Made by a program: the position numbers and the translations under genes | Origin: Tetradesmus obliquus | Taxonomy: Eukaryota; Chlorophyta; Chlorophyceae; Sphaeropleales; Scenedesmaceae | Assembly: GCA_030272155.1 (NCBI GenBank) | Contig: CP126195.1 | Location: forward strand, 2,277,001-2,341,000 | Direction of reading: 5' to 3' | Length of the DNA stretch: 64,000 nucleotides | Notes under the pieces: model-generated | Seen by the model: the letters and a program-made list of their open reading frames with translations, nothing else | The model's database searches: none | What the model was told of the DNA's origin: nothing | Part shown: piece by piece, positions 3,267 to 55,518 of the stretch | Numbering within the stretch: position 1 is the first letter of the stretch | Layout: the number at the start of each line of letters is the position of its first letter

Positions 3267-5524
3267 TCACTTCACGCTGGTTGACAGTGCAGTGCCGATC
3301 ACCATCAGCACCTCGCTCTGCTGGTACTGAAACGGCTGCGCTGCCGCCACCAGCGCAGACACGCGCGCCCGCCGCAGGGTGTGGTCATCCAGGTTGGACA
3401 GGATCCAGTCGTCCAGGCCCTCAGTGTGACGCAGCTGCCCGCCATCACCTGCATTTGAAAAATGCAAACGCATTTGAATGTGGCAGGGCTGAAAACGGTG
3501 ACGGCAGCAAGAGGCCTGCACATCCTGTGATGTGCTCGCATTCAGATCTGCTGAGTGACATGGTGCGCAACAACAACAAATGACAGTGATCTAAGTAACA
3601 ACAGCAGCAGCAGCAGCAGCAGGCATGCAATTGTATCGGGCCAAGGTATGGTGTTGAAATGTTCCTGTATACTATCTGCGGCATAGCAGCAGGGACGGTA
3701 CGCTGTGTTGTGGCCGCCTGTGCTTATAACAGTGCTGCAGACGTCCGTGCCGCGCACTTGCAGCTCCGGCAGCAGCCTTGCTCACCTTGCTGCTGCTGCA
3801 TGCTTGGCAGCGTGTCCAGCTTATGCAGGGCGTGTGAAGCAGCTCCCGGGGCTCCCGGCAGCTGCTGTGCTGACACCTGCTTGAGGGCTAGCCGCAGCGC
3901 TGCCTGCATTTGCACCTGGAGGAAGAAACAAAGAAGAAGGAGAGGTGTTAGACTGGAGGCACATGCGATGTCAGTGCCTGATTGGTTGACTGCCACTCCC
4001 ATTTGCCAAGAACAGCTGCACATCCAACCTTGCATATGGGAGCATGCACAGCAGGTACAACCTGGCACATACCGTAGCACACACAACACAAACTATTGCA
4101 GTAGTCAGCTGCCTCATGCATGGTCCTACCTGTGTCAAAGCAGGTTACCTCCTGCCTGCTGCTGCAATCTCTGCCAGTGCCACTGGGCTGCTGCCAGGGT
4201 TGCTGAAAGGCAGGTGCAGCGTGCCGCTCTGGTGGTTGTAGTTGTACGCGGTGCTGTGTGCTGCGACTGGTGCTGCACCTTCCCTGCAGGGAACATACCG
4301 CACACAGCAAGTGTCAGTTGAGTAAGCCGTGTGCAGACAACACCAGCCGTGTGCGCAAGCGTTTGCCAGCGATGACGCAACACCAGCAGCATGACATGCC
4401 GGGCTAGCTTGCAACTGAAGCAAACAGACAGACACACAGCGACACCCACACAAGGGATGCCACGCAAGGGCTGCACCGTGCACCATTCTGCTCTGCAGTC
4501 TTCAGAGCAGCACTGGACCCAACGGGCCGCACGAATCGTCATCGTAGTAAACAACAAAGTGCTCACGTATGCGCCTGCAGCGACAGCCCCTCCAGCAGTT
4601 GCACCCCATCCATGCGGCACAAGTTGTACGCGCCCTCTGTCTCGTGCATGCGCTGCTGCAGCGGCGGCGTGAGGTACGTTATGAACACGCTCACTGCCGT
4701 GCCTGGGGAGTGCTCCAGTGTGGCTGTGGCTGATCCGTAGGAGCTTATGAGTGGGGCAAACACAACATCAAAGTCCTGCAGCACACACTGGATGACCTGC
4801 GGAAGTAGGAATTAGAGAGGGCATTGCAGCGGCAGCAGCAGAGCAGGAGACAACAGTGGGAGGTTCTGAAGAGTGCAAACACAACATCAAACTCTTGCAG
4901 CACAAACTGGATGGAATGCACTTGTAACAAAGAGCCGCAGCAGTGAGAGCAGCAGAGTGGGACACAACAGGATGAGCTCATGACTTGTAGTTGTGAAAGG
5001 GCCAACACGCAACATGTAACAAGTAACAAGTAACAAGTAACAAGTAGCAAATAGGTATTAGGTGACCAGGCATGGCAGCAGCAGCAGCAGCAGCAGCAGC
5101 ACTCACCGGCACCACCACTCCATCAGGGAACAGGTCCAGCGGGAACTTCCGCGCCAGCTGCTCCGGCCCTGCAGCCAGCACACGCTGTGTTACAAACATG
5201 TCATATAACATGTCATTTGATGCTACAGTTGCGTTGACACTGTGGTGGAAGCCAACCGTCCATCAGCAACCTGATGACCGCCTTGCAGCATTGCATCGAT
5301 CTGCTACAGCTTGCTGGCTCAACAGCACATACAGTGCGGCGGACACCATATCCTGCAGTTTCTGTGTGCACATTCTGCAGTGCACAGTAGCACAGAAGGC
5401 CACTGAGGGGGCCGCCGCACACCTGCATTGCTGCCAATGGCCAGAATGGGTGTGAGGGGAGTGTCAGCTGCCAGCACTGACTGCTTCACCCCCTGCTGAG
5501 CCAGCACATCCGACAGCCTGCAGC

Positions 5525-5571
<47 letters not shown>

Positions 5572-6576
5572 AGATCTATAAGAGTGGAGGGCTGTGCTGC
5601 TGCTAAACATGAACAGGCCCTGCATGTGTGCTTGGGTATGTTGCTGCTGCCGGGTGAATGAACCATGCAGTCAGGACGTTGGCGATGCGCAGCCGTACAT
5701 GCTTCCACATGAGCTGCTGTTGCTGCTCGCCAGAAGCTGTAGCGGCTGCTTTAGGCTGCCATGCAACAGCCCTTGCCCAGACCACAGGATCTGCCAACAA
5801 TGCGCTGCTGTCCCGGAGCACGTAAGATTCACATCATAGATCCATGTGACTACTGCTTAGCCTACAATTGTGCACGCGACAAACCACCCACTGCTGATTG
5901 CTTATGTAAGAAGAAGTGAATATCCTCGCAAGAGCTTCAAGATATGGTTTTCCGCACCTGCTGCTGGTGCCGTCTGGTGCAGTGACCTGCAGCTGCAGCA
6001 GGTGCTGAAGGCTGCCGCTCCATTGGCTGGGGGTCACCCAATCACTGTCGGCAAACGTGTATGCTGCGCCGTTGCAGAAGATGAAAGATGTTGAAGGCCG
6101 CGCATAAGGGTATCCCTGCGGCAGGAGGTGACGAACAGCAGGGGCAGCAAGATGATATTGTTACCGCATGCTCTGCTGCGGCAGGAGATGCTTGCAAGAC
6201 GTTCAGGACTTGGAGGGTGCGATGGTAGCTCTTGCAGCATGCGACTGGATGAGTAAGCAGGCTGCTGTGCAGCTGCTGCTATCCTGCTGTGGGTTGGGGC
6301 ATGACATGTGTGCATAGTGATGTACACGAGGATCACAGGACTGTCCAACACACTGTAGCTATAGGTGTGTGCTGTGGTCTGATACTCAGGTCCCTTTTGA
6401 CAGCTGCCTACCTTTGCCCTAGCGAGGCGTTCGGCTGTTGTTGCGTTTGCCACCACTACGCGCCTTGGCTGCAGCCTAGGGGGCACCACTGGGGATGCTG
6501 ACACCATGCTCCTGCAAACTCTGCTGCTGCAGAACCCCTTTGCCAGTAACCGTGTAGCAGCAGACGGACCGAGCAT
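3267..6576 (-). CDS. Conserved protein with GSN motif, possibly gamma-glutamylcyclotransferase-like; probable plastid transit peptide
   Basis: Multi-exon gene read on the minus strand. Exons I can place are 6576-6412, 6115-5987, 5517-5423, 5168-5107, 4796-4567, 4283-4149, 3915-3786 and 3448-3267 (stop). Most junctions are GT-AG and in phase. An additional exon is probably needed near 5700-5820, and the join 4149 to 3915 is out of phase by two bases, so a small exon is missing there. The N-terminus (MLGPSAATRLL..., or an internal Met at 6507) is basic and Ser/Ala-rich like a plastid transit peptide. Next come GYPYARPSTSFIF and AIGSNAGPEQLARKFP, then DFDVVFAPLISSYG, SPGTAVSVFITYLTP and RMHETEG. 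I recall uncharacterised proteins with the same order (GSN...QL..KF, DFDVVYS, PGT, RMHATE). The GSN motif resembles the substrate loop of the gamma-glutamylcyclotransferase fold, but that assignment is a guess. Confidence 0.6.
4860..4925 (-). repeat. Decayed copy of a neighbouring exon start
   Basis: In the intron upstream of the 4796-4567 exon lies a second, diverged copy of that exon's first 16 codons. It reads IQFVLQEFDVVFALF, against VIQCVLQDFDVVFAPL in the real exon. The copy is on the same strand, about 110 bp away, and is not followed by the rest of the exon. Confidence 0.75.
5013..5100. repeat. Short tandem repeats (GTAACAA)n and (CAG)n
   Basis: Four to five units of GTAACAA(A) at about 5013-5050 are followed by a CAG run at 5073-5100. 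Both lie in an intron of the minus-strand GSN-motif gene, the CAG run directly next to the splice donor at 5107. Confidence 0.8.
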
Positions 6577-8382: not shown

Positions 8383-9177
8383 CAGGCAGCCTGGCTCAGC
8401 GCACCGGCCTGATGTGCATGTGGTGCTGGTGGAGCCACAGATACCGCAGAACACGGGCAACATAGCACGCACATGTGCAGCAACGAATGTGGCGCTGCAC
8501 CTGGTGGGACCCATGGCCTTCGAGCTGGATGACAAGAAGTGAGTCAGTGTGCTCAAATGTTTCATGTTGCATACTACAGGCTGCCCCAAACAGCTTGCTT
8601 TGAAGTTTTTAATGTTTGTAGCGTTGCCAGCCTGCCAAGTCGCCTGAATGCTGGTTCACTCATGACGCCGCACCTGGTGGGACCCATGGCCTTTGAGCTG
8701 GATGACAAGAAGTGAGTTGGTGCTCAGGCATCTTATATTGCTGATGATAGGCTGCCGTACCAGCTTGAATTGGAAATGCAGGTTGTTGTACCACCAAAGT
8801 AGGGCTGCCAAGTCGCCTGCGTGTTGGCAAGAGCATTAGAGATAGCTTGCTGCTGCTGTCTTGACACTGCTGCAACGCTGCTTCAGCCATGGAATATTAA
8901 GTGGGCCACATTGTTATCACATCAACATTACATTATTATTCATGGCGCTGCACCTGGTGGGGCCCATGGCTTCAAGATGGATGACAAGAAGTGGGATGGG
9001 TTGCAGTACAGGCGTGTAGTACAAAGCACCGCATGTGGTACTGACCGGCCTGAAAGCTTGCCCTGTAGTTGGGCACTAGAGTGCCTATGCGAGGTTGCTC
9101 AGGTATTGCCCTGGTGCTGGCTAGGGCGGTAGAGGCAGCTTGCTGCTGCCCTCAACGCCGCTACAACCCTGCGTCAA

Positions 9178-9361: not shown

Positions 9362-10225
9362 TAGAAGAACGCCTGCACTGCTTGAGTTGCATATGGTACA
9401 TGCAAGCCGGGCACTTGCGCGGCTCCCCTCATTTTTGATTTAGCGCACTTGATCATGTGTGTGACTGTGCGCGCTTTTGGCCATGCAGGGCTGCATCCTC
9501 CGGGGCCAGGTCCCAATCAGCCTTCCCTTCCGCTCCTTGATGCACACATCAACACCACCTGATGCTGAGTCTATCTGCTGTATGTGCAAGCTTTGCAGGA
9601 CTTCTTCGCCTTCTTCCAGGCCCTGCCGGCCCCCAAGCAGCTGATTGGCTACTCCGTGTATGGTGACACCTACTACGCAGGCCCGGGTGCGTGACAGCTA
9701 CATGTAGGGTGCTGTGGTATGCCATCGCTGATATTGAATCACTGCAGCACTGCTGTGCCCTGATGCAACAGCTGTTGCCGTTACAGACACCTACTACGCA
9801 GGCTTGGGTGCGTGGCGGTGGCACTGTAACTGTTACAACTATTAGTTGAATGCAAGTGACATTGCAGCAGGTTGCTGCAGCTGACACTGTACAAGTTACT
9901 ACTAGCAGCTGGCATAATATTCGTAACTTGCGGCTGACGCATGTATCACTTGAGTGACGCTGAGAGGGATGAGAGGTATTGACAGCAGTTGCGAGGCCCA
10001 GGTGGGCACAGCTGACATGGTGCGCTACATGATGCGTGTACTGCAAGCGCTGTGCCACATTTGTGACATAATCAGCAGTACAACTCATCATACACACATT
10101 TTATGCACGCCGATATGTGTACTGCAAGCACTTTGTCGTTGTATTTCAATATCGCGCCTGGAAAGTTCCTGTCCGCTTCACCCTGCGCAAGGTTGTCCTG
10201 GCTGGCTGGCCAAATGACGGGCACA

Positions 10226-10296
<71 letters not shown>

Positions 10297-10979
10297 AGAG
10301 TTCAAGTACACACCTGGCGACTGGCTGCTGTTTGGCGCTGAGACGACCGGGCTGCCCATGCAAGGTACTGCAGCATGATGCAGATGCATGCCTTTTGTCC
10401 ACAACTGCTGCTGCAGCTGTCACCGACAGTCACAACAGTTTTGTTGCCTGAGAACAAGTGGAACACACCAGCATATACATGCTCCGCCGCTACTGCGCTG
10501 GACTTCAAAACTGAGGTGTTGTTTGAAAGCGCATTCTTACAGCACAGTGTGCTGTAGCTGGCAATTGCACCATGTCAGTGCTGCTGTTCTGCTTATGCCA
10601 TGCACCATGCTCTCTCTTCACTGTCTGGCTGGTGTCCTCTGACAACACCTGCCTCCCGACACTGCTGCTGCTGCCCCCTGCAGCCCACCGAGACATCCTC
10701 ATCAGTGGAGGCGTGCTGGTCAAGATCCCAATCGTAGACACCTACGTGCGCTCCATCAACCAATCCGTGTGCGTGGGTGTTGGTGTGTTTGAGGCGCTGC
10801 GGCAGTTGGATGAGGGCCGGCATGATGTGACGCCTAGGGACGATGAGTCATCGCCAATGGTGCGGCTGCCGACACCCATGCAGGTGGAACAGCAGCATCA
10901 GCGGCAGCAGCAGGAAGGGCAGCAGCAGCAGCAGCAGCAGCAGGAGGCTGTTAAGAAGGAGGCACCGGTGCTGGCTTGA
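7782..10979 (+). CDS. TrmL-type tRNA (cytidine/uridine-34-2'-O)-methyltransferase, SPOUT family
   Basis: Exons are 7782-7894, 8386-8538, 9236-9299, 9599-9686, 10299-10364 and 10684-10979. All junctions are GT-AG, phases agree, and the total is 780 nt, giving 259 aa. The start lies in a strong Kozak-like context (GGCCATGGC). Residues 46-110 carry the YibK/TrmL signature [16 protein letters not shown] (NTGN at 60-63) and [16 protein letters not shown] is at 151-159, and residues 176-203 hold [15 protein letters not shown]...FEALRQL, the knot-forming SAM-binding motifs. Bacterial TrmL is about 157 aa. Here about 40 Ala/Ser-rich residues precede the domain and about 55 Gln-rich residues follow it. 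The family methylates the wobble ribose of tRNA-Leu. The compartment is unclear; the N-terminus is not a classic transit peptide. Introns carry long CTG runs and copies of exon ends. Confidence 0.88.
8668..8990 (+). repeat. Two decayed copies of the TrmL exon 2 end
   Basis: The last ~48 nt of exon 2 ([14 protein letters not shown] plus its splice donor, 8492-8545) recur in intron 2 at about 8668-8720 and 8943-8990. The first copy keeps the donor GTGAGT. In the second the donor is changed to GTGGGA and a base is lost inside the exon part. Flanking intron sequence (CTGCCAAGTCGCCTG, TTGCTGCTGC) is repeated too, so the units are tandem duplications of roughly 180-270 bp. Confidence 0.85.
9178..9361. 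repeat. CTG and CAG runs flanking TrmL exon 3
   Basis: A CTG run at 9179-9231 leads directly into the acceptor of exon 3 at 9235. A CAG run (9310-9361) begins a few bases after its donor. A similar long CTG run at 8316-8385 ends in the acceptor of exon 2, and another at 10226-10298 in that of exon 5. Confidence 0.9.
9783..9816 (+). repeat. Decayed copy of the TrmL exon 4 end
   Basis: Exon 4 ends GACACCTACTACGCAGG..., followed by the donor GTGCGTG (9665-9692). About 118 bp further on, inside intron 4, the same exon end and donor-like GTGCGTG recur with two changes. Confidence 0.8.
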
Positions 10980-10985
10980 GGCGGT

Positions 10986-11158
10986 TTGTAGCACTACAGA
11001 TGCTTCTTGTTACTTCGGCGGATGTGAGTTTGAGGCGCTGCGGCAGTTGGACGAGGCCCGGCATGTTGTGGCGCCTAGAGACGATGAGTCATCGCCGATG
11101 GTGCGGCTGCCAACGCCAATGCAGGTTGAGCAGCAGCAGCAGCGGCAGTAGCAGGAAG

Positions 11159-11189
<31 letters not shown>

Positions 11190-11236
11190 CCAGGAGGATG
11201 CTGAGCAGGAGGCACCAGTGCTCGCCTGAGGCGGTG
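10986..11236 (+). repeat. Tandem duplicate of the TrmL last exon, broken
   Basis: The 3' part of exon 6, from FEALRQLDE to the stop (10789-10985), is repeated at about 11029-11236 with roughly 90% identity, including the poly-Gln tract, the ending APVLA and the bases GGCGGT after the stop. The copy carries an in-frame TAG inside its Gln tract and has no upstream domain, so it is not a gene of its own. It may serve as part of the 3' UTR. Confidence 0.85.
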
Positions 11237-13560: not shown

Positions 13561-14712
13561 CAGTTAGCAAGCCTGGCTGGCAAGTTGTGTGTCTTAGAGC
13601 GGAAGCACTCGCTCTTTGCAGCAGTGCATGGCAGCCTGCAATGTATTGCAGGCTGCTTTGAGTGAGTGCCAGGTTGAAGCAGCTCGGCGTCAGGGGAGCC
13701 CAGATTGTACCATCTGCTGTCTTTGATGCATCTGCTGGATGCCAATTGTGGCTGCTTGTGCTGCTGGCAGATCGCAGTGCAGGCTGCAGTGTAGTTTGGA
13801 ACAGCTGGTGCAGGCTGCAGCTTGAGCAGCTGCTCACCCTACTGGGGCGTGTGCCGAGCTGTACTCTGGAAGTGGCGCCGTCTGGAAGTTGACCCTAGGT
13901 GTAAAGTGCTTGACCGTCTATGTGTGCCCGCGTTTCATGTCCCAGGTGAACATTGTGCAGACAGGCATTGTGAGGCCAGGTAGACCTACCTGCAGCCGAG
14001 GTGGGTGACGAAATTATGACATAGTAAGTGACATAATAAGCACGTGGGCCCGGACAAAGAATAAAATCGTTGAAGCGGCAGCAGAGCAGCATTGTTCCGC
14101 AAGAGCTTTCACGTAGTATCGCTAGCAGCAGTGTCAACGGCAGCAGGAGTTATGAGCCTCAGGCTGGTGTGCTTGTAAGCTTGGAGCTGGCACCAGCAGC
14201 AGGTCGCAAAGCGTGGTAGGCCTCTGGCCGCCATGCCAGTGTTGCTTCAGCATCGGTTGCAGCGCAGCGTGGGTCCGGACTATGGATTACCGCTAATGCA
14301 ATGGCTTGTTTGCTTGTAAACTTCGTCCTGGCACCAGCACCAGGGCGCAAAGTAGGTTGGACCCCTGGCCGCAGTCACTCATGAGTCAAAAGCTGAAACT
14401 AGTCATCCTTGTTAAGGACTTCACGTTCGTCTAAGGCTCCTTACGTACCGCTGCCTGGGTCGCTGACAACCACTTGCTTGTTTACAATGATCATGGCATG
14501 TGACATGTACAGGTGCCGCTGGAGTGTCAATTGCAGCGTTGGTCCAGAGAATAGGTCATCGATTGAGCTTCGGCTGTAGAAACAGCTTGCTCAGAAAACA
14601 TGACATGCCATGTTCCAAACCGTCGCAACTGAACTATTCCTATGAGTCTTCATGCATGCCGCACGCTGTGCAAAACATGTGCAACGTCACACGGGATGTG
14701 GCCGAGCTGGCA
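13561..14712. other. Intergenic, nothing recognised
   Basis: Lies between the unknown plus-strand gene and the first miniature LTR element. Two ~20-bp stretches resembling each other (CTTGT(A)AGCTTGGAGCTGGC and CTTGTAAACTTCGTCCTGGC) occur near 14169 and 14311. No coding signal. Confidence 0.4.
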
Positions 14713-14717
14713 GCCAA

Positions 14718-15260
14718 TGTAACGAGGGAAAACTGGATGTCATAGGAGGGATCGGACCCCGTTACAACTCCCCCCCACCTATTCTCTTAGCGTCCTCGCT
14801 AAGCATGACGGTCTTACTGGCCTACTCGACGTCCAGCGCACGGGAATCACCCCGTGGGGATGACCTCGAGTTACTTTCAGACATTCACACATCACGATAA
14901 CTCTTTGAGCGTTGATGGGTCGTTTTCCACTCGTTTGTTCTTCCTGGCATTGGCTTTCTGCCCTAGCAGACCACCGTCGAGCGCGGCTATGCATGTCTGT
15001 ACTGTAATGGGTGCCCCACATCTGTGGCGATCAACCCGCAGGGGTAGAGCCCTGCCATATGTCTTTGTTATGCACCCCAGCGAGCCTGTTGCCACCAGAG
15101 CGTCGCGGAGCAACCGCCTCCAAGCCGGGTTCGAACTCAGGACCTCGGGGCTGCGAGACAGGTGACATACACCCCTCAGCTAAACCACCCCGCCCTTCTC
15201 AAGCTACCAACTGTAACGAGGGAAAACTGGATGTCATAGGAGGGATCGGACCCCGTTACA
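14718..15260 (-). mobile_element. Miniature LTR retrotransposon (TRIM-like), copy 1, with tRNA-like core
   Basis: Two identical 49-bp terminal direct repeats (14718-14766, 15212-15260) start TGTAACG and end CGTTACA. They enclose 445 bp with no coding capacity. The element is flanked by a perfect 5-bp target duplication GCCAA (14713-14717, 15261-15265), the hallmark of integrase-mediated LTR insertion. Read on the minus strand, the first repeat is followed after 2 nt by TGGTAGCTTGAGAAGG, a plausible primer-binding site since its complement ends in CCA. The last repeat is preceded by a polypurine tract, GGTGGGGGGGAGT. A tRNA-like segment with box A and box B lies just inside the primer site. 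The identical repeats suggest recent insertion. Confidence 0.85.
15119..15190 (-). promoter_or_regulatory. tRNA-like segment with pol III box A and box B (TRIM copy 1)
   Basis: On the minus strand, TAGCTGAGGGG (15182-15172) fits box A and GAGTTCGAACC (15138-15128) fits box B, spaced as in a tRNA gene. The flanking sequence does not pair into an acceptor stem, so this is a tRNA-derived promoter relic rather than a tRNA gene. The same segment is present in copy 2 (boxes near 17791-17781 and 17747-17737). Confidence 0.65.
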
Positions 15261-15426
15261 GCCAAAATTAAAATCACGTCAATTGCAGATACCATATAGA
15301 CCTGGGCTGGGCAGCCTTTTGCGTGGTTCTTCTTGTTCTCACCAAAGGCTCTGCATGTTTTGGCCGAGTCTGTCTGTGCCTGTGCTGCATGCCTTGCCAC
15401 TGCTTTTGGGGCCATGCCGTGTTTAC

Positions 15427-15506
15427 GATATGTGAGCTGAAAGTAGGGCGAGTGACTCACTCTCGGGTGATAGCTTGCCTTCTCCTGTAACAAGCCTCTC
15501 TCTTTC
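15427..15506 (+). mobile_element. 80-bp 5'-truncated LINE tail
   Basis: 76 bp (15427-15502) are identical to 23551-23626, the 3' end of the large LINE. The copy is bounded by a 10-bp direct repeat CCGTGTTTAC (15417-15426 and 15507-15516). This fits target-primed reverse transcription that stopped after about 80 nt. Confidence 0.8.
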
Positions 15507-30445: not shown

Positions 30446-30446
30446 G

Positions 30447-42646: not shown

Positions 42647-45600
42647 TTGATGTCCAGTGATGATGAGGAGTTGTGCTTCATGCCTGGTGATGCGCCCAGC
42701 TCACCGACGGCTTCGGAGGTTGGCGGTGAGCAGCAGCAAGAGGCGCTGCTGCGCGCGTTGCAACTGCAGCGCGAGGCATATTTGCATCTTCCGCGGCAGC
42801 AGTTTGAACAGCTACAGGCTTTGTTGTTTGAGTATAGTGACGTTTTTGCGGTTGATGATACAGTTCTTGGTTGTGTGCCTGATGAGAAAGGGGTGTTTCA
42901 CTGCATCCCCACTGGTTCTGCTGAGCCGGTGACGCAGCGGCCTTACAAGCTGAGCCATCACGAGTCGCTGTGGCTGCGTGTTGAGTTGAAGCGTTTGGTA
43001 CGGCTTGGGGTGATTCGGCCCAGCAAGTCTGCTTGGATGAGCCCGGTTGTGTTGGTGAAAAAGCCTAATGGGGGCCTGCGTCTGTGTGTGGATCTGCGTG
43101 CACTCAACAAGGCCACTCTGCCAGATCCCTACCCTCTGCCCCGCATCGAGGAGGTGCATGCAGCTATGGGTGGATGTACGTTGTGGTCTCAGATGGATTA
43201 TGTGACGGGGTTTTGGCAGGTGCCAATGAAGGAGGAAGATTGCCATAAGACTGGTTTTACTACTCCTTTTGGCAATTTTGAATTTTGCAGGATGGCCATG
43301 GGCATGATGTCTGCGCCATCTACGTTTCAGCGGCTGATGGATGAGGTTCTGGATAGTGTGAGCGGTGCAAAAACATACATAGATGATACTTTTGTGTTTA
43401 CAGCAACTTTTGAGCAGCAGTTGGCTTCCTTGGCGTGTGTCTTTCGACGTAGCCGAGAGTACAACTTGAAGATGAATCCTATGAAGTGCCGTTTCTGTGT
43501 ACCGGAAGTTGTGTGCCTGGGCCATTTGGTGTCTGCTCGGGGCATTCGGCCTGTTATGGATAAGGTGGCTGCCATCATGGATCTGCCCCGTCCTAATTCG
43601 GTCAAAGGTATGAAAGGTGTTTTGGGCGTTATGGAGCAGTACAGAAAGTACACCAGCGGTTATGCAGCGATGTGTGCGCCGCTGCAGCTAATGACGCGCC
43701 GCAATGTGCCGTATGTTTGGACAGTTGAGGCTGTTGCTGCTTTTGATACGGTGAAGCAGGCGCTGTGCTCTGCGCCAGTGCTTGCACTGCCAGACTGGGC
43801 CCTGTCGTTTATTTTGACAACAGATTGGAGTCGGCTGGCGATTGGGGCAGTTTTGTCACAGGCAAATGCGGCTGGTGAGGAGCATCCTCTTGCGTTTGCT
43901 TCACGTGCGCTCACTGCTGCTGAGCAGAACTATGCTGCTACAGAAGGTGAATGTCTGGCTGTGAAGTGGGCGGTTGATAAATTTCACTACTATCTGCATG
44001 GCAATCGTTTCTTGCTGCGCACAGACCACAAAGCTCTGGAGTGGCTTGACAGCGCGCGTTTCACCAACTCCAAGCTGGAGAGGTGGGCGATGCAGCTGCA
44101 GGCGTATGATTTTTCGGTGCAATATATCAAAGGATCCACCAACTGTGTGGCTGACTACTTGTCACGTCCGCAACCTGGTAGTTCGTGTGTTCTGGAGCAT
44201 GAGGATGGTCGGCAGGAGAGTGTTTCTGCTGGTGCTTTGGTGATTTGCAGCGCTGCGTGGCCTAGCAGTGTTGTGAAGCAGTCGGATTTCGATGCGGTGG
44301 GTTGTGAGGTTTGTCAGGATCCTGGCGGTTTTGATAACATGGCAATCTGCTCTGGGTGCGATCGGTGCTTTCACCTGCGCTGTGTCATGCCACCCATGTC
44401 TACTGTTCCCAGTGGTGACTGCTTTTGCCCTGGATGTGACCCTTGGTTTTCCAATGTTTCTCAGCTGTGCGATCCGGATACAGTGCTGCTGTATGCACCT
44501 GGAGATCCTCACGTGGATGATTTTTTGCTGGCTTATGTGCGCAGTGGTATGGATGATGGTGTGCTACAAGGTTTGAATCGCGGCAGAGTACGCGCCATAC
44601 GGCACAGAGCTACTGCTCTGCGGCCTCACCGCACTTTGCAGGACTGGTTGATGGTGTTACGGCATGTGAAAGGCGCTAATCCTGTGTGGTTGTGCTGCCC
44701 TCCTGTGTCCTACCGCTGGGATCTGGTGCGCAGTATGCATGATGCTTTGGGACATGCTGGGGTCCAGCAGACATGTGCTTATTTGCAACAGCATTTCCAC
44801 TGGCGGGGCTTGCCTGGTGATGTTCGGCTGTTTCTGGCTCAGTGTGATGCGTGTCAGCGCCGTCGGCTGGCACTGCCTGCACCTTTCCCCATGCAGGAGC
44901 CAGTCGTTCGGGGGCCGTTTGAGCATGTGCATATCGACTTGTGTGGCCCTTTCGTGACTCCTTGTGCTGATGTATATGGACGGTTGTATTTGCCTGAAGC
45001 AAAGGAGCAGGTGTTCAAGGCTTGGGTGGTAGTTATGATCGATTACTTTACAAAGGCTGCAGAATTTGCTGTTATTTATGATAAGACAGCTGCTTCGGTT
45101 GCTCGGGCTTTCTACTACAGTTGGATCTGCCGGTACTTCGTGCCCAGCCATGTCACCAGTGACAATGGTACTGAGTTTGAGGTTCAGTTTGGTCATTTGC
45201 TGGCACGTTTGGGCATCAAGCATGTTCAAACGTCAGCTTGTCATCCTGCTGCTAATGGTGTGGCGGAGCGGTTGGTGGGCTCTTTCAAAAGCATGCTGGA
45301 GCGGCATGTGAACTCTCATCCGATTCATTGGGTGCAGAGTGTTCCTGTGATGCGGCAGCAGTACTGGGCTCGTGTACATGCCACCTTGGGCATTTCGCCG
45401 CAGGAGATGGTGTTTGGCAGACAGCCTGTGCCTGTGTTACCTTTGGCACGTGATGTGTTGGCAGTAGCAGCATCTGCTAGAGTGTGGGTTTGGCCTGAGT
45501 TGTTTGAATGTGAGCATCCGGCTTTGCATGCAGCGCAGTTGCGTCAGCAGCTGGCGGCTGTTGATCAGGATGTATTTGTCAGGATAAAGCAGCAGTTTCA

Positions 45601-45889
45601 GCGGAATGCGCGTGCTTGGCCCCTGCGTGGTGCCCGCCGCACTGTTGACAGCTCTGTTACTTTTAATAAAGGCGATCTTGTGCTTGAGGTGGTTTCAGGC
45701 CCTGTTACCAACCTAGGAGATGGTGTGCGGGGGCCTTTCCGTGTGCTGGAAGTGCGTGACAATGGTGTAGTTCTGCTTACGACTGGCAGTACAGGTTTTC
45801 GTGATGCTGCTGCGTTCACGCGGCACATCAGCAATCTGGCCAGGTACCTGGACAAGCGCTCTGTGCGTGCTGCTCTAGCAGCGTCCTGA
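42647..45889 (+). CDS. Ty3/Gypsy Pol polyprotein (RT-RNase H-PHD finger-integrase)
   Basis: 1080 codons, uninterrupted. RT: PYKLSHHESLWLRVELKRLV, MSPVVLVKKPNGGLRLCVDL, catalytic YIDD at 244-247 and CLGHLVSARGI. RNase H from about residue 385: LTTDWSRLAIGAVLSQ, ATEGECLAVKWAV, TDHKALEWLD, NCVADYLSRPQ. At about 553-600 lies a Cys4-His-Cys3 PHD finger (CEVCQDPGGFDNMAICSGCD, CFHLRCVMPP, GDCFCPGCD). The integrase zinc motif (HDALGHAG...CDACQRR, ~697-735) follows, then the D-D-E core: HIDLCGPF, TSDNGTEFE and NGVAERLVG (~871). It ends in an SH3-like C-terminal module without chromodomain. All catalytic residues are intact. The PHD finger could read histone H3 and so guide integration; that is inference. 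Confidence 0.9.
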   Translation: MMSSDDEELCFMPGDAPSSPTASEVGGEQQQEALLRALQLQREAYLHLPRQQFEQLQALLFEYSDVFAVDDTVLGCVPDEKGVFHCIPTGSAEPVTQRPYKLSHHESLWLRVELKRLVRLGVIRPSKSAWMSPVVLVKKPNGGLRLCVDLRALNKATLPDPYPLPRIEEVHAAMGGCTLWSQMDYVTGFWQVPMKEEDCHKTGFTTPFGNFEFCRMAMGMMSAPSTFQRLMDEVLDSVSGAKTYIDDTFVFTATFEQQLASLACVFRRSREYNLKMNPMKCRFCVPEVVCLGHLVSARGIRPVMDKVAAIMDLPRPNSVKGMKGVLGVMEQYRKYTSGYAAMCAPLQLMTRRNVPYVWTVEAVAAFDTVKQALCSAPVLALPDWALSFILTTDWSRLAIGAVLSQANAAGEEHPLAFASRALTAAEQNYAATEGECLAVKWAVDKFHYYLHGNRFLLRTDHKALEWLDSARFTNSKLERWAMQLQAYDFSVQYIKGSTNCVADYLSRPQPGSSCVLEHEDGRQESVSAGALVICSAAWPSSVVKQSDFDAVGCEVCQDPGGFDNMAICSGCDRCFHLRCVMPPMSTVPSGDCFCPGCDPWFSNVSQLCDPDTVLLYAPGDPHVDDFLLAYVRSGMDDGVLQGLNRGRVRAIRHRATALRPHRTLQDWLMVLRHVKGANPVWLCCPPVSYRWDLVRSMHDALGHAGVQQTCAYLQQHFHWRGLPGDVRLFLAQCDACQRRRLALPAPFPMQEPVVRGPFEHVHIDLCGPFVTPCADVYGRLYLPEAKEQVFKAWVVVMIDYFTKAAEFAVIYDKTAASVARAFYYSWICRYFVPSHVTSDNGTEFEVQFGHLLARLGIKHVQTSACHPAANGVAERLVGSFKSMLERHVNSHPIHWVQSVPVMRQQYWARVHATLGISPQEMVFGRQPVPVLPLARDVLAVAASARVWVWPELFECEHPALHAAQLRQQLAAVDQDVFVRIKQQFQRNARAWPLRGARRTVDSSVTFNKGDLVLEVVSGPVTNLGDGVRGPFRVLEVRDNGVVLLTTGSTGFRDAAAFTRHISNLARYLDKRSVRAALAAS

Positions 45890-46644
45890 GTTTGGAGGGC
45901 TGCAGCTTACATGCTCGCAGCGGTGGTAACAAATCCAGTGCTACATAATGTAGTCTGTGATTTGCAGCGCTCTGCTGTTGCTGTGCACTGCTCTGTGGTT
46001 GCTGAACCCTGAGTAACACATGCCATGCTCGGTGCTTGCCTATAGCCAGCACACTCGCAGTGAAACACTGTTGGGTGTTTGTTCGAGTTTCTGCTGTTTT
46101 GAGTGGTGCTTGGTTACTGGCTCATGTGAGTGCGGATTGTTGCCACCGCTGTGCTGCATCTGCATGTCCCTGGTTGGTGTGGCTCTGTGCTTGTTTCGGG
46201 ATTGTTTGTGTTGGCACGCTTTGTTTGCATTGCCTGTCGGTTGTTTGGTGCTAGTGTTGGCTTGTGATGGCTTGCTTGTGCCTCAGTCTTCTCTTTTGGG
46301 AGGGGGTGAAGGTGTAGGCTACACACAGCGCTGACTGATAGACTTCACTGAAGCTTTGTGGTGTGATCTACCACAGCCAGAGTAAGGATGGAAAGGTGTT
46401 GCAGCTTCTGTGTGTACGCCTGCTGTGATAAAAGAGTCAGCCTGAGGCACTGCGCTTCTAGGGTCAGCTGTTATAACAGTAATATGCTGAGTCAGCGTAA
46501 CAGTTACAGCTACAGGTTATGAAATGCCGTGAGTTGGCATGTGTGAAGAAGAGAAAGGAAGTATGTTGCAACGCTGTCAAGCGTGTGCAGACGATGTGGC
46601 CGTCGAATGTCACAAGGTAACAAATCCAGTGCTACAACCTGAGC
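45890..46644. other. 3' region of second Ty3 element, no LTR resolved
   Basis: A polypurine stretch, GGGAGGGGGTGAAGG, at 46297-46311 followed by TGTAGGCTACA could mark a 3' LTR start, but no matching 5' LTR was found. A 21-bp direct repeat (GGTAACAAATCCAGTGCTAC plus A) occurs at 45925-45945 and 46615-46635, 690 bp apart. Confidence 0.35.
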
Positions 46645-47003
46645 TTCTTGATAATAGAGGGTAACTAGCCACACATGCAGCACCAAAGGATCGACAACAC
46701 ATGTCAGCACATCTTTCCACAGCAGCAGCTGCTGGGTGCTGGAATTGCTGCAAGGTGGCTAGTTGCCCTCTTATAAACACATGCTGCTTGATAATAGAGG
46801 GTAAGTAGCCATGCATACAGCAGGGTGAGTAGAAACACATGTCAGCATCTTCCACAGCAGCAGCTGCTGGGTGCTGGAATTGCTGCAAGGTGGCTAGTTG
46901 CCCCCTTATAACACACATGCTGCTTGATATTAGAGGGTAAGTAGCCATGCATACAGCACCAGTAGAAACACATGTCAGCATCTTCCACAGCAGCAGCTGC
47001 TGG
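46645..47003. repeat. Tandem repeat, 136-140 bp period, about 2.6 units
   Basis: Units start near TTGATAATAGAGGGTAA at 46648, 46788 and 46924. They share CACATGTCAGCA, CCACAGCAGCAGCTGCTGG and GGTGGCTAGTTGCCC blocks. Identity between the second and third units is clearly above 90%. No coding signal. Confidence 0.9.
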
Positions 47004-47230
47004 CTGGCATTGTTTTCTGTGAGCACCACTGTGTGCGCAGGGTGGCGCACCATCGTTCAGCACTCGGCTAGCAACCTGCATCATGCAATGAAGCACTTTG
47101 GACACAGGTTGTCCTGCTGGTGTCCGCCTCCAGTGCTGCATGACCAGCTCAGCACACAGTGAACCATGCAGCATGACTCACGCTGCTTTGAGCTGCTGTC
47201 GCCTGCCATGCAGGTGCCCAAGACGCCCAC

Positions 47231-47559: not shown

Positions 47560-48739
47560 CTGCAGCAGCAGCAGAGAAGCAGCAGAGGATATAGGATATT
47601 AAGTGATCGTTCAACAGTTGTTTTAGCATGTATAAGGCTTGCAGCATCTTATTGCATGCAAGGAAATTGCTTGCTGGCTGCATTAGGGTTGTTCCGTGGA
47701 AACTGCAGAGACGCACCCTGGTTTCCAGGCAGATTGACTCTTCGCACCGCCATCAAACTTTCGTTCCGCTTTGCTACTGACTGTGTGGCCACATGGGCTT
47801 CGTCGGGACCTGCACTACTGCTAAAGAGACGCAGGCCACCACGCCGTGCTTTGCTGCGCCCTCAAGAGAATCTACAACACTTCAAAGGTTACTTAAAGCC
47901 ATATTGTGGTCCCAGTACGGTCATGAGTTCACGCTGGCTCGTGGGGCTACTGCTGCTGCTGCTGTTCAGTGTGGCAGCCGCATTGGTCCTACGCGCGTTT
48001 CCATAAGCATACTAAGGCGTTCAGTATATCTTTCAGACACATTGTGAAGAGATCTGCGACAGCCGCAATTGTGGAAGAGTGAGGCTGCACCCCACGTGGG
48101 AACGCTTAAACCCAGAACCATGGAGATGCTACAGGCGCATTCGAGTCTTATCTATTGCAGCAGCTGCAATGGCATGGCAGCCAACGTATGAGTGGTGATG
48201 CATCATCATACGCTGCAGCGCTGCATGCAGAGGCACTGGCACGTAACAAAGGGTTGAACCGAATGTGCACACTGTACATTCTGCGTGTTACACCCTGGCG
48301 TCTGCAGCAACCAGCAGCGCACGAACTCAACTCAACGTTGTTGTTCGAACCCTTCGGGGACTCGTCACAAACATGGGCTACTATTGCTGGTTGCCACCCA
48401 GCAGGCGATGACATGATCACTTTTATGAAGCAGGCACCTGCTTTGGTGGCTGCTTTTGTGCACTGCTGCTATCTGATGCGGTGTCACCCGGACACTGATC
48501 CTGAGGTCCTTCTGTCCTCTCAGGCTGTTGCTCAAGCTATTGATGATGCTGATGAACTTTTTTCTGCGTTTCGTCTGACGGTTTGGACGATGATGAGTTG
48601 TTCTTCGATGTTTCCTCCCCCTATGAGCCTCTCGTTGGCTCCTGACTGGGGTTCCCACTCCTCGTTGAGTGGAGCATGTCATGTAATGTAATGTAATGTA
48701 ATGTCAACTAACAATCGTGTACAAGCACCTTTGTCACCG
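47560..48739. other. Intergenic; weak open frame 48155-48691 (+)
   Basis: A 178-codon frame at 48155-48691 contains plausible segments (DPEVLLSSQAVAQAIDDADE) but no known motif. I cannot tell whether it is a gene, a transposon relic or chance. An AATGT microsatellite (48679-48703) follows it. Confidence 0.3.
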
Positions 48740-48889: not shown

Positions 48890-51800
48890 ATCCAACCCCA
48901 GCAGCTGGTGGAGCACCAGATCAGCTGTAGCAGGCCCCAGGCACAGCCCCGAGCCCTCATGCCCTGCTGCTACAGCCACTCCTGGCAGCCCAGGAACTAA
49001 CCCCACTGAGGGCAGCCCACCTACTGCAAAAGGCCTCAGGCCTACTCGGGTTGTTGCCAGCAGCTGCTGCGCTGAGATGCCGGATAGGTGGGGGAGGAAG
49101 CAGCTGGCTCTTTGCATGATGGCGTCTATGATGACGGCGTCAGGCAGCGCCTCCCAGCCGCTGAATTCACGGGAACTTCCTGCAAGCGTGAGGTGTGAAG
49201 ATCAATGTGAGCATTGACACAAATGCATATCAAAATGCGCCCGAGTAAGCAGTCGGCGGGCAGGGCAGACAGGGGAGGTGCAGCAAGATCACGCCTGCAT
49301 GTGCACGCATGTGCTGCAACAGCATTGCCAGAAGCTTGCGGCAGCAGTAGGACTGCCGTTGTACTGGGCACGCCTGTACAAACCCGTGCAACTAGTGAGG
49401 TTTCTATCGTTGTCAGCAACAAGAGCCATGGACTGCCTTGATGCAGTAATACACCATTGCGGCACCTTTGAAGTGCATTGAAAACTTGCCTTTGTTGGTA
49501 GTTCTACTCAGAGAGTAGGTTCGTAACTCCTGTGGTTCCTTACATGCAGCGGGTCAGCCTCACCTATCAGTAGCGTTCCTGATGCACTGGTCGTTGCTGT
49601 GAACGTGATGTGCACTGCTTTGCTGCTGCTGCTGCTGCTGTTTCCAGCAGCTGTGCCATGTGACTGCTCGCTGCTGCTGCTGTAGTGCTGCGTGTAAGAC
49701 AGCTCCATCATGCCTGCAGCCAATCGGCAAGCGTGAAAAGCAGGTGACGGCTCATCAGTGCTCAACGCGGCGTATACATTCAAATAAGTATAGCGAGATG
49801 GGGGCACATCCATATCTTGACACTTCACAAGCAGATCAAGCTGCAGGGATCTCAAGCAGCGGGTTGCTGCATTCCGCAACATACTAAGGCCACAGCAGTG
49901 GCTGTAGTTGACTAAGCAGACCAAAAATCCCACCCCATGCCTAATCATTGTTGCACCCACATGCACAAGGCACTTTCTGACAAGGGCAACACATGTCAAG
50001 CAGGTGACAGGATGCGTCAGCCCCTCCTTTGCTGTGCAGCAGCTGCCGCACGTTCATGTAGGCCAAGCTGGACATAAAACACCACTGGAACTCACCAGTG
50101 TGTATGCGCGGCACGCCAGCTGGCGGCAGCATCTCCAGCAGGTGGCCTCTCCCGCACTGTGAGTGCTGCCACACCACCAAGCATGCAGTGCTATCTGCTA
50201 CCACCACTGGCGCTCACCGGTGTGTATGCGCGGCATGCCAGCTGGCGGCTGCATCTCCAGCAGGTGACCCCTCCTGCAGCAGCTGCTGCCAAACCACCAA
50301 GCATGCAGTGCTATCTGCAACTACCTCTGGCGCTCACCGGTGTGTATGCGAGGCATGCCAGCTGGCGGCTGCATCTCCAGCAGGTGACCTCTCCTGGGCT
50401 GCAGCAGCTGCTGCCAGCCCTGCTGCCCAGTGGCGGCTGCCAGCAGCTGCCCACTCCACACACCAGCAGCCACCACCACTCCCTGCCGAGCTCGGACTCT
50501 GCACAACAGTGTTGCACGAGCAGCATCGCAACGTTTGGCAGCTGTATCTGAGCAGCACCGCTGGCTGCTGACAGTTGCCCCACATGGCTGTACATGTTGC
50601 CTGACAGCTGTGGTTGTATAAGTTGCCTGAAAGCTGCTTGCTTAATGCCTAGGCTGTGCATGTCACTGCGGCTGACAAAGCATCTGGCGGTGTTGCTGCT
50701 CACAACTGGCCTGCATCGCCTGCTGCTGCTGGATTGTGGCTACTATGTTCGCGCAAGCCAATTAACGGCGGCAGCAAAACGCCAGCGCTTGGACGCTAGA
50801 AGTTGCCTGCCCTGCCGTCCCCAGCGCTCAGCCTGAACACACACTCCTCTCCTCGTACCTGCGTTTATGTGTTGTTACCTCCACGCCTGCCCCATCACCC
50901 AAGGGCTGCAAGCCCACCACAGGCTCCTGCAGCCCAAGCAGCAGCTGGCTGGTCTGGCCAGCACTGCCCCCTGCTGCTGCTGCTGCCAGTTGCTGGCAAT
51001 CCTCCAGCATGGCAAATGCTGTCTGCTTGCCATTCTGTGTAGCGCCAAAGCGCAATGTGGTGCACAGTGCAGCAGCAGCAGCAAGCGTTAGGCTGTTGAC
51101 ATGTGTCTGCCCAACAAGTAGAGTACAGGGTGGCAATCAGCACTGGAATTCCCCAGGCATGTCAGTCACGCATCAACACATCCGCGCAAAGCCACCAGTT
51201 CTGCAGGCATGCAAGGCGCTTAGAAATGCACCCAACAAATGCAACACCAGTACTTCAAAGCATCCTGAGCGCCATCGTCAACTCAGACGCGCCGCCAGCT
51301 AACGCCACTGCCCCATGCTTCGCCGCGCAAGCCAACCAACTTTGAACAAGGCAGCAACATGATCAACAGCATGTTGGCGCCAAACAACCACAGCTGGCAC
51401 CGGCAGCATCAGCGGCAGCAGCACTCACGATCTGTGCGTCACTCTTCACCAGCAGCCCGTGCGAGCCTGTCGGCAGCTTCAGGGCAGGCTCAGCCATCTT
51501 GAGCTCCCGGGGACTCAGCAGCACCACGCCAGGCACGCCCTGCTGCTGCAGCATGGCTGCACGCGCCTGCAGCTGCACCATTTCATCTGCTGATGTGGCA
51601 AGCAGCAGGCTGCCATTTTCCTGCAAGCAGCAGCAGCAGCAGCAGCAGCAGCAGTGCGTGTGGCTCGTTGGCAGCGCTTTGTGGGCTGATTAACACAGGC
51701 CCATGGTGACCGACTCGTGCTTGGCATGCATGCAGAGTGTGAGGTGCAGCACAGATGCAAGGAACTCCTCAGCACTCTTTAGCCAGCTATTGCAGTGTAC

Positions 51801-52848
51801 CACCTGCTGCTGCCAACCTGGCTGAAGAAAAACATACATAACATACATAACGACCCCTCACCTGCCACTCCATGGCTGTGCCCAGCTCGCTGCTGCCTGC
51901 TGCTGCTGCCAGCTGCTGCCACATGGCCTTGCTGCGCCTGGCCAGGGGCCAGCTGGGGCTGGCTGGGTCGCGGTGCGCCAGCCAGATGTAACCCTGCCCT
52001 GCAGCAGAACAGCATCAGGCAGTGCATTCTGTTACAACATCAACATTAGTACCAGACAGCAGAACAGACACAACAGGCACAGCCAACTGGGGCTTGCAGG
52101 ATTGCGGTGCGCCAGCCAGATGTAGCCCTGGCCTGCAACACAGCAGAACAGCACCAGGCAGTGCATCAACATGAGCACCAGACAGCACAACAGGCACAAC
52201 AGGCACAGCTTGCAGGATTGCGGTGAGCCAGCCAGATGTAGCCTTAATTCTATGTGCGGCTTCTGCTGGCAGGCTTCTGCTGGCAGGCTTCTGCTGGCAG
52301 GCTTCTGCTGGCAGGCTTCTGCTGGCAGGCTTCTGCTGGCAGGCTTAGCCCAACATGGCATTAGGTACTACCTCACTAGTAGTATCGCACCTGCACCAGT
52401 GGCCCCAGCACATGGCTGCTTTGCATCCAGCAGCGCCACAGACAGCTGCGTGTCCTGCAGCAGCTTACGAGCGACACACAGGCCTGCATAACAAACACAC
52501 CAGGTGCTGCTGAGCCTGCTGCGTTATTCAGCGCCCGGGCATGAGTGCTGTGCCTGCAGCTCATGCTATGCCTGCAAGCTGCAGCAACTCAGCAGGCAGA
52601 GGCCAGCTAAGACACGAACGAATGCTGCAGGAGCATGCTGATGGTGAAGCAAACTGTGTCTCACCTATGATTCCTGAGCCAATGACTGCTACATCCACTG
52701 TGTCCTGTGCACTGCTGCTGCCTGCTGCTGCCACAATGCATGCGGATCTTCTGCTGCTGGAATGACTGACAAACAATGTTGAAGGAAAGGTACAGCACCT
52801 CCCGCCATAGTGTGGGCGGGGAGGCGGCCTGGTGTGCAGTGCATGCAT
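48740..52848 (-). CDS. FAD-dependent oxidoreductase, DAO (glycine/D-amino-acid oxidase) family
   Basis: Exons, minus strand: 52848-52665, 52483-52391, 51998-51862, 51620-51429, 51034-50879, 50560-50338, 49713-49564, 49179-48740. Sum 1575 nt = 524 aa, all in phase. The start of the 50560 exon is the least sure. The first ~45 residues are rich in Ser, Arg and Ala, a probable plastid or mitochondrial targeting peptide. VDVAVIGSGIIGL holds the FAD-binding GxGxxG at 57-62, and GATGAGQGYIWLAHRDP the second DAO motif. QGVVVAAGVWSG and RGHLLEMQPPAGMP are typical of the family. VGLRPFAVGGLPSVG (424-438) and AAGHEGSGLCLGPAT (449-463) close the FAD site. The family oxidises amines with FAD; the substrate cannot be told. 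Confidence 0.88.
50092..50387 (-). repeat. Three tandem copies of an exon end in the FAD oxidoreductase gene
   Basis: A 120-bp unit occurs at about 50333-50387 (the real exon end), 50213-50267 and 50092-50145 plus spacers. Each carries HLLEMQPPAG..PRIHTG followed by a GTGAGY-type splice donor. The two extra copies lie in the following intron, and all three donors remain intact. Confidence 0.9.
51960..52245 (-). repeat. Three copies of an exon start in the FAD oxidoreductase gene
   Basis: The start of the 51998-51862 exon (GQGYIWLAHRDPASPSW) is copied twice upstream in the intron, near 52136-52080 and 52245-52205, as GYIWLAHRNPAS. Intervening sequence with CAGACAGCAGAACAG words is repeated as well. 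The copies are shorter with distance from the real exon. Confidence 0.85.
52258..52346. repeat. 14-bp minisatellite
   Basis: About 6.4 perfect units of GCTTCTGCTGGCAG in the same intron, directly next to the outermost copy of the duplicated exon start. Confidence 0.95.
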
Positions 52849-54291: not shown

Positions 54292-54991
54292 TGCAGGTGG
54301 TTGTTGACCGCATGTTCAAGCGTGTGCTCACCTTTGCTGGCGCGCCAGTGGCGCTGGGCATGGTGCTGTTCCCGGTGTTCTGGTACCTCAAGGTGCGGCC
54401 TGCAGCTTAGTATCCATTCTTTGTTTTGTTGCTGTGTTGTGGCTCGCATGCGAATCCGCCGCCGTACTGCGTGACATACACATAAACCTTATGAAGGTGT
54501 GTGCTGGCGCGCATCCTGTGGATCCAGCTGGCGCCCCACAAAGGCTTTCCCTTGTCTGAATATATTCAAAGCTGCTGTAAATTTTGTATCAAGCCCTTCA
54601 CCCGTGCTTGCACCCTGGTTGGCGCGGCTGTTTACTCTCACTGTCATCTTGCAGGTGGTGCAGAAGCTGGAGCACCGGCTGTGGGTGGTGTCTTCCACGT
54701 CACACGAAGCATCACAAGCTCTTTAGTTGCATCACACCCTTCCTTGCTTGCACTCTATCTGCCTTATAACCTCCTCCTGTTCTCCTGCAGGTGGTGCAGA
54801 AGCTGGAGTACCCGCTGTGGGTGGTGTACGTCACGCAGGCGGCCATGTTTGGCGGCGGCCTGCTGGGCATTACGTATGGCATCCTGTCGACAAGCTGGGA
54901 CCCGCGCCGCGAGGGCAGTGCCCTGGGCTGGCAGGAGCTGAAGGCCAACCTGCCCATCCTGCTGAGCAAGAACAAGGAGCAGCAGCAGTGA
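53221..54991 (+). CDS. PAM68-like thylakoid membrane protein (photosystem II assembly)
   Basis: Secure exons: 53716-53955, 54297-54392, 54791-54991 (80, 32 and 66 codons plus stop), all in phase 0. A possible first exon 53221-53253 (MMQLQRLAVGQ) also ends in phase 0 but is uncertain, and no good transit peptide is seen. After a Gln/Pro-rich stretch comes VVVDRMFKRVLTFAGAPVAL, a first membrane segment ending FPVFWYLK. YPLWVVYVTQAAMFGGGLLG is the second. Then comes the family signature GILSTSWDPRREGSALGW and a short charged tail. In plants PAM68 helps early photosystem II assembly in the thylakoid; the function here is by family membership. Confidence 0.85.
54224..54290. repeat. CTG run before the PAM68-like middle exon
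   Basis: About 20 uninterrupted CTG units end seven bases before the splice acceptor GTGCAG at 54296. Confidence 0.95.
54650..54699 (+). repeat. Decayed copy of the PAM68-like last exon start
   Basis: Acceptor CTTGCAG followed by a copy of VVQKLEYPLWVV (here VVQKLEHRLWVV) lies 137 bp upstream of the real last exon, with its upstream pyrimidine-rich stretch also repeated (ACCCTT...TTGC). It then diverges. Confidence 0.85.
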
Positions 54992-55024
54992 GCTTTTTTT
55001 GCTTGCAGCTGGGCTGTTAGCGGG

Positions 55025-55518
55025 ATACCAGAGCTGAAGGCAACCTGCCCATTCTGCTCAGCAGGAATGGGCTGCAGCAGCAGTGAGGCTGCTATTGCAG
55101 CTGGGCTATGTGAGGGCAGTGCGCTGACCTGGCAGGAGCTGAAGGCCAACCTGCCGATTCTGCTCAGCAAGAACAAGGAGCTGAGGCTTTGGTAGAGCTG
55201 GGCTGTTGAGCTGGGAGGGCAGCGCCGGCAGACTGGCAGGAGCTCAAAGCTAACCTGCAAATTCTACTGAGCTAGAACAAGGAGCAGCAGCAGTGAGGCT
55301 TTGCTGCAGTTGGGCTGTTGAGTTGGGTGGGCAGTGCTGGCAGGAGCTGAAGGCCAAACCTTCCAATTCCGTTGAGCAAGAACAAGGAGCAGCAGCAGTG
55401 AGGCTGGTGTTGCAGCCAAGCTTTTGAGTTGTGTGGGCAGTGCGCTGGGGTGGTACGAGCTGAAGGCCAATCTGCCGATTTTGCTGAGCAGAACAAGGAG
55501 CAGCAGCAGTAAGGCTGG
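55025..55518 (+). repeat. Five degenerate tandem copies of the PAM68-like coding end
   Basis: The last ~110 bp of the gene (from GREGSALGWQELKANLPILL to the stop and ~20 bp beyond) recur at about 55025-55110, 55112-55214, 55215-55326, 55327-55430 and 55431-55518. Each retains most of ELKANLPILLS.NKEQQQ and, except the third, a TGA/TAA after it. All carry frame breaks or substitutions. They follow the true stop at 54991 and would be transcribed, if at all, as 3' UTR. Confidence 0.88.

Follow-up and report, generated by a model that had tools for sequence, protein, structure and literature searches.

Minisatellites and satellites are in-register arrays built on a common unit, and work in rice and with plant nickases is said to have found small tandem duplications at staggered breaks. 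In the portions of one study considered here, small tandem duplications arise by fill-in at staggered breaks with CST and Pol alpha, and the insertions are below 100 bp (PMC8355091). Internal gene duplication is an established idea and is viewed as a common event in work cited in the part consulted of a potato study (PMC4974935), which itself describes a tandem duplication in a single gene, RdRp, that crosses an intron-exon border and copies the splice signals along with it. Here, we analyze tandem duplications at the edges of coding exons in the green alga Tetradesmus obliquus, beginning with a 64-kb stretch of contig CP126195.1 (positions 2,277,001 to 2,341,000; hereafter, the window). An original prediction had placed eight such duplications in four genes, and self-alignment recovers all eight, with the per-gene numbers as claimed. 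A 334-kb sample of the genome contains 88 tandem duplications whose units measure 80–260 bp, and 79 of these sit at the border of a predicted coding exon extending past them.

The original prediction also held that no described class of intron growth matches this pattern. A genome-wide class of coding-edge duplications was indeed not found in the literature searched, which was covered by title and abstract openings and mainly outside subscription journals; in a term search of genome papers on Scenedesmaceae and Sphaeropleales, the word “intron” was absent from the main text available. As worded, the statement was nevertheless too strong, as single genes with a border-crossing duplication are known (PMC4974935) and the idea of internal gene duplication is an accepted one.

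Sequence Sample and Gene Models

The sample consists of the window (C5:2277001–2341000) and three blocks of the same genome, denoted A (C1:1.00–1.10 Mb), B (C8:2.00–2.10 Mb), and C (C12:1.50–1.57 Mb), and amounts to ~0.3% of 104.66 Mb (17 contigs). Gene models came from a purpose-built both-strand hidden Markov gene finder, trained on the sampled sequences and blind to repeats. It returned 491 exons with a median of 121 bp and introns with a median of 265.5 bp, with coherent predicted splice signals (AG/GTGAGT at donors and CTGCAG/G at acceptors, the slash marking the splice junction). Many duplicate copies were also called as exons.

Several models could be compared with known proteins. The TrmL protein spliced by hand (221 aa, first exon excluded) is identical over its full length to T. 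obliquus OEZ86_012677 (P0121, 259 aa), and the edges and stop codon of the model match P0121. The PAM68 model covers nearly the whole DUF3464 profile and the FAD model nearly the whole DAO profile (Pfam), while the GSN-motif gene has no Pfam profile match. A block C gene at 19–36 kb is an OSCA/CSC1-like channel, whose best homolog, P0241 (a transcriptome open reading frame by its name), carries PF13967, PF02714, and PF14703. A tblastn search with P0241 recovered most predicted exons of this gene with ends within 16 bp, and the copies matched separately, mostly more weakly.

Tandem duplications were found as chained self-matches, a BLAST-only scan being blind to short offsets. The 334 kb contain 142 clusters; 368 chains reached the threshold in the real sequence vs. 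three in eight shuffles. Tandem self-matches scoring at least 24 number 19 in the window, 66 in block A, and 41 in block B and merge into 54 clusters, whereas nine fourth-order Markov shuffles gave none and reached scores of 20–23. Cluster periods are bimodal: 45 are shorter than 60 bp, and a second class centers on 110–130 bp. The 88 clusters with units of 80–260 bp form the main set, from which smaller and larger units were left out. After filters, subsets of the 79 edge duplications were used for the mismatch and splice-site test (72), unit splits (46), copy number and age (71), and breakpoint sharing (69).

Placement at Coding Edges

Edge duplications recur in the three further blocks (71 of 79 clusters without the window), which agrees with the genome-wide process that had been proposed. 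A lack of excess at exon edges had been named as the result that would overturn the proposal; on the 334 kb, an excess was found. Under the 10-bp rule of the null model the edge count is 76, and 70 of the 79 satisfy a stricter rule, while placing these units at random on the gene map, copies collapsed, puts 25.7 ± 4.2 of them at edges, with a maximum of 41 in 1000 placements. Non-coding clusters number four (five by the 10-bp rule) vs. 44.2 ± 4.8 expected, with a minimum of 28 in 1000 random placements. The excess was smaller in an earlier permutation that used uncollapsed models (an edge in the left copy for 22 of 44 vs. 10.1; in either copy for 26 vs. 17.1). Short-period arrays, an internal control, lie at edges in 5 of 45 cases vs. 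12.2 expected.

As labeled, the 79 edge clusters comprise 43 donor, 31 acceptor, and 5 terminal sites, with two labeled donors being really stop-codon edges; the remaining nine of the 88 are four internal, one exon-only, one intron-only, and three intergenic clusters (two in one array region). Stop-codon edges are duplicated in TrmL, PAM68, and A35732 and more weakly at C3078 and A73051, and two start-side edges are listed, A19096 and B4415. Splicing itself is therefore unlikely to be the guide. The duplications across stop codons also speak against a model in which a break at the splice site is extended twice independently. That copies always extend outward, as had been stated, is a consequence of the exon remaining intact and is built into the edge criterion, and so is no separate regularity.

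An approach independent of the scan aligned exon ends to their own introns. Of 739 edges, 10.4% score at least 20 (donors 10.5%, acceptors 10.3%) vs. 0.3% for other genes, 0.6% for other introns of the same gene, and 0.1% for the reverse complement, which places the copies head-to-tail in direct orientation. Introns without a listed cluster have no clear tail of older copies (1.8% vs. 0.9% at scores of at least 18). Counted per gene, the 33 predicted genes have 798 edges and carry 72 duplications, whose density does not correlate with GC3. In the OSCA-like gene, 13 of 48 edges are duplicated; in two block B genes, 0 of 42 and 0 of 34.

Introns with duplications have a median length of 500 bp with the copies and 313 bp with the copies collapsed (74 introns), in line with the intron enlargement originally claimed, and the collapsed introns therefore have room for intron-only units. 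Uniform placement in the affected introns predicts 33 intron-only cases out of 71, and one is present among the 88. The intron part alone suffices for detection in 25 of 72 edge duplications, while a less strict threshold let through 6 of 300 unrelated pieces. Simulated intron-only duplications were detected in 93, 65, 53, and 31% of cases at intron mismatches of 0.151, 0.214, 0.229, and 0.259, the observed value being 0.236; simulated edge units were detected in 96%. Expressed as odds, 76:4 against 25.7:44.2 is a 33-fold edge excess, which falls to ~16-fold at 50% non-coding detection and 10-fold at 31%; with five non-coding clusters instead of four, the values are 26-, 13-, and 8-fold. Geometry and detectability thus account for part only, and a roughly ten-fold edge excess remains.

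A gapped scan outside the edge clusters covered 133.5 kb of intron, with one strong and three weak loci plus five loci labeled short-period arrays (one of them the FAD acceptor site), and 62.9 kb of intergenic DNA, with two array regions and seven short-period arrays. A window-wise interior test had found 18.7% of interior windows self-similar, a misleading figure because array copies match one another, and the test was redone outside clusters. In the window and all blocks, every one of the 19 exon-only clusters has a period divisible by three, compared with 29 of the 79 at edges and 9 of the 32 in non-coding DNA. Selection against units inside exons is therefore visible; this frame selection fails to remove intron-only units.

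Arrays, Decay, and Breakpoints

Two or more copies are present at 36 of 71 edges. Among consecutive edge-reaching copies, about half of the pairs have a common exon breakpoint (31 of 61 agree to within 3 bp, vs. 8% between arrays), and spacing is equal within 5 bp in 29 of 61 vs. 10% between arrays. Many arrays therefore stem from a single founder that expanded in register. In 25 arrays, the copy nearest the exon resembles it more than the farthest does, in 7 less, and 4 are tied (p = 0.002), and the intron part shows the same order (24 vs. 8, p = 0.007). By this comparison of copies, the youngest tend to lie beside the exon.

Exon parts of copies are on average 0.87 identical to their source, and intron parts less. 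Exon-part mismatches at the three codon positions are 141/1446, 147/1467, and 291/1450 (~1:1:2), as expected for a constrained exon and a free copy, and the intron mismatch of 0.236 (four strata) is close to the third-position mismatch of 0.20. Copies thus decay like unconstrained sequence. The exon-side end is sharp, with identity beyond it dropping to chance (an end set by the alignment method itself), while similarity runs into the intron above the random level for ~60 bp. Copies had been described as decaying but often keeping the splice site. Decay is evident, and of 72 first copies tested, 49 retain the splice dinucleotide, although it is lost in the copy of the GSN-motif gene. The further suggestion that copies seed pseudo-exons was not supported where it could be checked: the gene finder calls many copies exons, but the annotated T. 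obliquus TrmL protein P0121 contains only the old exons and skips the copies.

Base composition, CAG/CTG runs, and simple motifs do not explain edge placement. GC content is no marker of the sites (0.577 in edge units, 0.586 across all edge windows, and 0.48–0.55 in the four non-coding clusters), and a search for breakpoint motifs gave small counts only (GTAC 6, CATG 10). Slippage seeded by CAG/CTG runs had been offered as a cause. Such runs are dense, at 1.5–2.7 per kb, but they are not enriched within 10 or 25 bp of either breakpoint. Within 10 bp, they accompany 4% of outer ends, against 6% for intron positions drawn at random, and 1% of breakpoints on the exon side, against 13% for random exon positions (run masking may lower the exon-side figure); within 50 bp of outer ends, the figures are 19% vs. 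15%. With short-period arrays also scarce at edges, slippage of this kind is hardly credible.

Origin of the Duplications and Alternative Explanations

The explanation we favor, with about an even chance of being correct, is that coding-edge tandem arrays descend from founders with one end in a coding exon and then expand in register. A founder duplication, mostly of 95–175 bp with units of about 120 bp, would usually reach 25–110 bp into a coding exon on one side and into the neighboring intron or 3′ flank on the other. The original edge would remain joined to the exon and in use; therefore, splicing and frame would be unharmed and the duplication would pass selection, while duplications wholly within exons would survive only in frame. 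The repeat would often expand in register, new copies tending to form next to the exon with the conserved exon sequence as the master copy, and older copies would lie further out, decaying like unconstrained DNA. Since geometry, detection, and selection leave the roughly ten-fold excess, we infer that founder formation favors duplications with one end in coding DNA; break repair or template switching where coding DNA is transcribed may give rise to them. A broader formulation is possible, although we put its chances somewhat below even: a duplication process would act on coding DNA, with selection leaving its products almost only at coding edges, where about 1 in 11 predicted splice edges carry visible copies; expelled exon ends, layer upon layer, would be a main source of intron growth, and the conserved exon edge would be a permanent template that renews the array.

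The strongest competitor, which we nevertheless judge unlikely, is survivorship. Duplications would form uniformly, non-coding ones would soon be deleted by recombination between copies, and edge ones would be kept since deletion would put a mutated exon copy into the gene. This requires only known processes, also accounts for stop-codon edges and conserved exons, and faces too few very young duplications to be excluded directly. However, pairs of intronic copies would be unprotected, and yet half of the edges (36/71) hold at least two copies that are less alike (0.81 when adjacent, 0.78 when non-adjacent) than copy and exon (0.85). Toy simulations of a simple model, run over 7 + 24 parameter sets, never gave an edge advantage of 1.5-fold or more as long as edge and non-coding counts both reached 10; one set yielded 1 vs. 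0. Next in order, and also unlikely, is homology-limited repair, in which a diverged partner (the other parent of a cross, or cDNA) serves as the repair template for a break and matches only in exons, so that one end falls in at least 25 bp of coding sequence. Exon parts below 25 bp are found in only 4 of 79 cases, albeit being harder to detect, and exon-side breakpoints avoid CAG/CTG runs. The stop-edge copy of TrmL reads as the version of another strain, OEZ85 (P0122), rather than its own exon, a case that a later change of the exon would also fit. The ~10% mismatch at first and second positions suits decay of the gene's own copy and not an allele from a strain with a 94% identical protein.

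It is improbable that duplication is uniform and that a selective sieve, together with the easier detection of conserved exons, accounts for the whole edge excess. The sieve is real, all 19 exon repeats being in frame, and a conserved exon part aids detection (96% of simulated edge units), but the sample contradicts this account: once geometry and detection are allowed for, non-coding duplications still fall short by a factor of ~8 to 16. It is very improbable that copies are functional and kept by selection, for example as alternative exons or spare splice sites. The retained splice dinucleotides and the exon labels from the gene finder would suit such a role, whereas the 1:1:2 mismatches are those of an unconstrained copy, no frame is kept, stop-codon edges are affected as well, and P0121 skips the TrmL copies. 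Least credible of all are mobile intron elements (introners), even though green algae are named among the lineages with introners in the part of the source considered (PMC9860276): two units searched genome-wide, the TrmL unit at 8490 and the array at 46643–47014, each occur only at their own locus, and dispersed elements were rejected on the same result.

Several observations weigh against preferential formation at coding edges followed by in-register expansion. The exon edges depend on home-made, partly checked gene models, and in the OSCA-like gene of block C, the P0241 match overshoots the predicted exon end at 22295 by 48 bp and the ends at 21447–21701 by 33 and 63 bp; exon 31158–31295 was missed by the gene finder, and a supposed copy at 29235–29342 fits P0241 at 86%, above the 74% of the exon end taken as genuine. 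Certain members of the 79 are questionable (exon part of 5 bp at W14162 and of 728 bp at C17164), genes differ strongly (chi-square 104.5, 32 df), and the sample is 0.3% of the genome. Exon and intron parts of units may be inversely related (Spearman −0.33 in 46 units and −0.62 in the 41 units no longer than 180 bp), and intron parts diverge more (0.236) than exon-part ages predict (0.154). Low-score outermost copies may be chance matches that inflate the age order, and the gapped scan surfaced three extra weak intron-only matches. An identity of at least 0.95 is reached by only three edge duplications and one intergenic duplication, and a bias at birth is therefore not directly visible. A non-coding array of 3 × 135 bp at 46643–47014 of the window (no strand), 67 bp past the last predicted FAD exon, is a counter-example to edge placement.

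Duplication Sites in the Window

On the minus strand, the acceptor side of the GSN-motif gene has a unit with an exon part at 4737–4775 and an intron part to 4855. Its one copy (4856–4983, offset 119) matches the exon part at 31 of 39 positions (4856–4894) and has lost the AG. Three sites lie in the plus-strand TrmL/SpoU gene. At the donor of exon 8386–8538 (site 8490–9176), the exon end 8490–8538 with GTGAGT and the intron start is followed by copies whose 49-bp exon parts lie at 8663–8711 (46/49) and 8943–8990 (45/49). At the donor of exon 9599–9686 (site 9665–9814, exon end 9665–9686), there is a short copy at 9786–9814 with an exon part at 9786–9803 (18/18). The third site (10783–11235) spans the last exon end, the stop codon, which fits P0121, and the 3′ flank, with exon and stop at 10783–10980 and one copy at 11024–11235 (177/207 over 11024–11230). 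The copy at 11024–11230 reads HVVAPRDD, like protein P0122 of strain OEZ85, where the gene's own exon reads HDVTPRDD.

The FAD (DAO) gene is on the minus strand. The site on the donor side of exon 50325–50498 (50020–50420, unit 120) has copies at 50207–50291 (83/90) and 50085–50171 (76/90), and the one on the acceptor side of exon 51862–51998 (51940–52243) has copies at 52082–52130 (43/49) and 52208–52243 (30/36); the latter merged with an adjoining 14-bp minisatellite in the cluster scan and hence falls outside the 88. In the plus-strand PAM68 gene (DUF3464/PAM68), the acceptor of exon 54791–54990 (site 54641–54840) has a copy at 54641–54703 (offset 136; 42/49 over 54655–54703). Its last exon end, stop codon, and 3′ flank (54906–55520, exon and stop at 54906–54990) are followed by five copies up to 55510 and a fragment, with spacings of 95–111.

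Other repeats were seen nearby. The window holds a Ty3/Gypsy pol open reading frame at 42650–45889, with relatives that have reverse transcriptase, RNase H, integrase, and PHD-finger domains, and a ~571-bp direct repeat (14690–15260 and 17299–17869; 97.6% identical, 2.6 kb apart) that resembles a long terminal repeat pair. An identical 79-bp direct repeat lies at 15424–15502 and 23548–23626, 8.1 kb apart, and a ~90-bp inverted repeat (78% identical) at 40200–40288 and 48604–48695. In block B, an intergenic array at 29463–31200 (L021–L022) has a unit of ~144 bp, close in length to the edge units.

Comparison with Known Systems

These duplications represent a countable, datable kind of mutation that adds ~120 bp per event at exon edges and bears on how introns lengthen without transposons. 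They import ready-made splice sites into introns and leave an age-ordered record, and users of gene finders are warned that duplicate copies can be mistaken for exons. If formation is truly biased to coding DNA, small duplications would be linked to transcription, chromatin, or homology in a fast-growing unicellular alga.

The potato RdRp duplication likewise spans an intron-exon border including the splice signals (PMC4974935). There, a new intron is spliced in one gene, whereas here, in TrmL, where this is checkable, the old edge is used and the intron grows; 79 of 88 sampled duplications are of this kind, often in arrays. Frequent duplication within genes is shared with internal gene duplication. 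Fill-in at staggered breaks resembles the present case in giving a head-to-tail copy from one event, but its insertions of <100 bp differ from the units here, and no coding-edge preference is named in the parts of the source covered (PMC8355091). Like introners (PMC9860276), the duplications change introns genome-wide; unlike introners, which place near-identical intron sequence at many loci, the two tested units (2/2) are single-locus and not dispersed. In-register copies with common breakpoints (31/61 pairs within 3 bp vs. 8%) recall minisatellites and satellites. Short-period arrays of the same sample, however, do not favor edges, and unlike a satellite, one unit of each array is a live exon edge, with placement that depends on the gene (79/88 at predicted coding edges).

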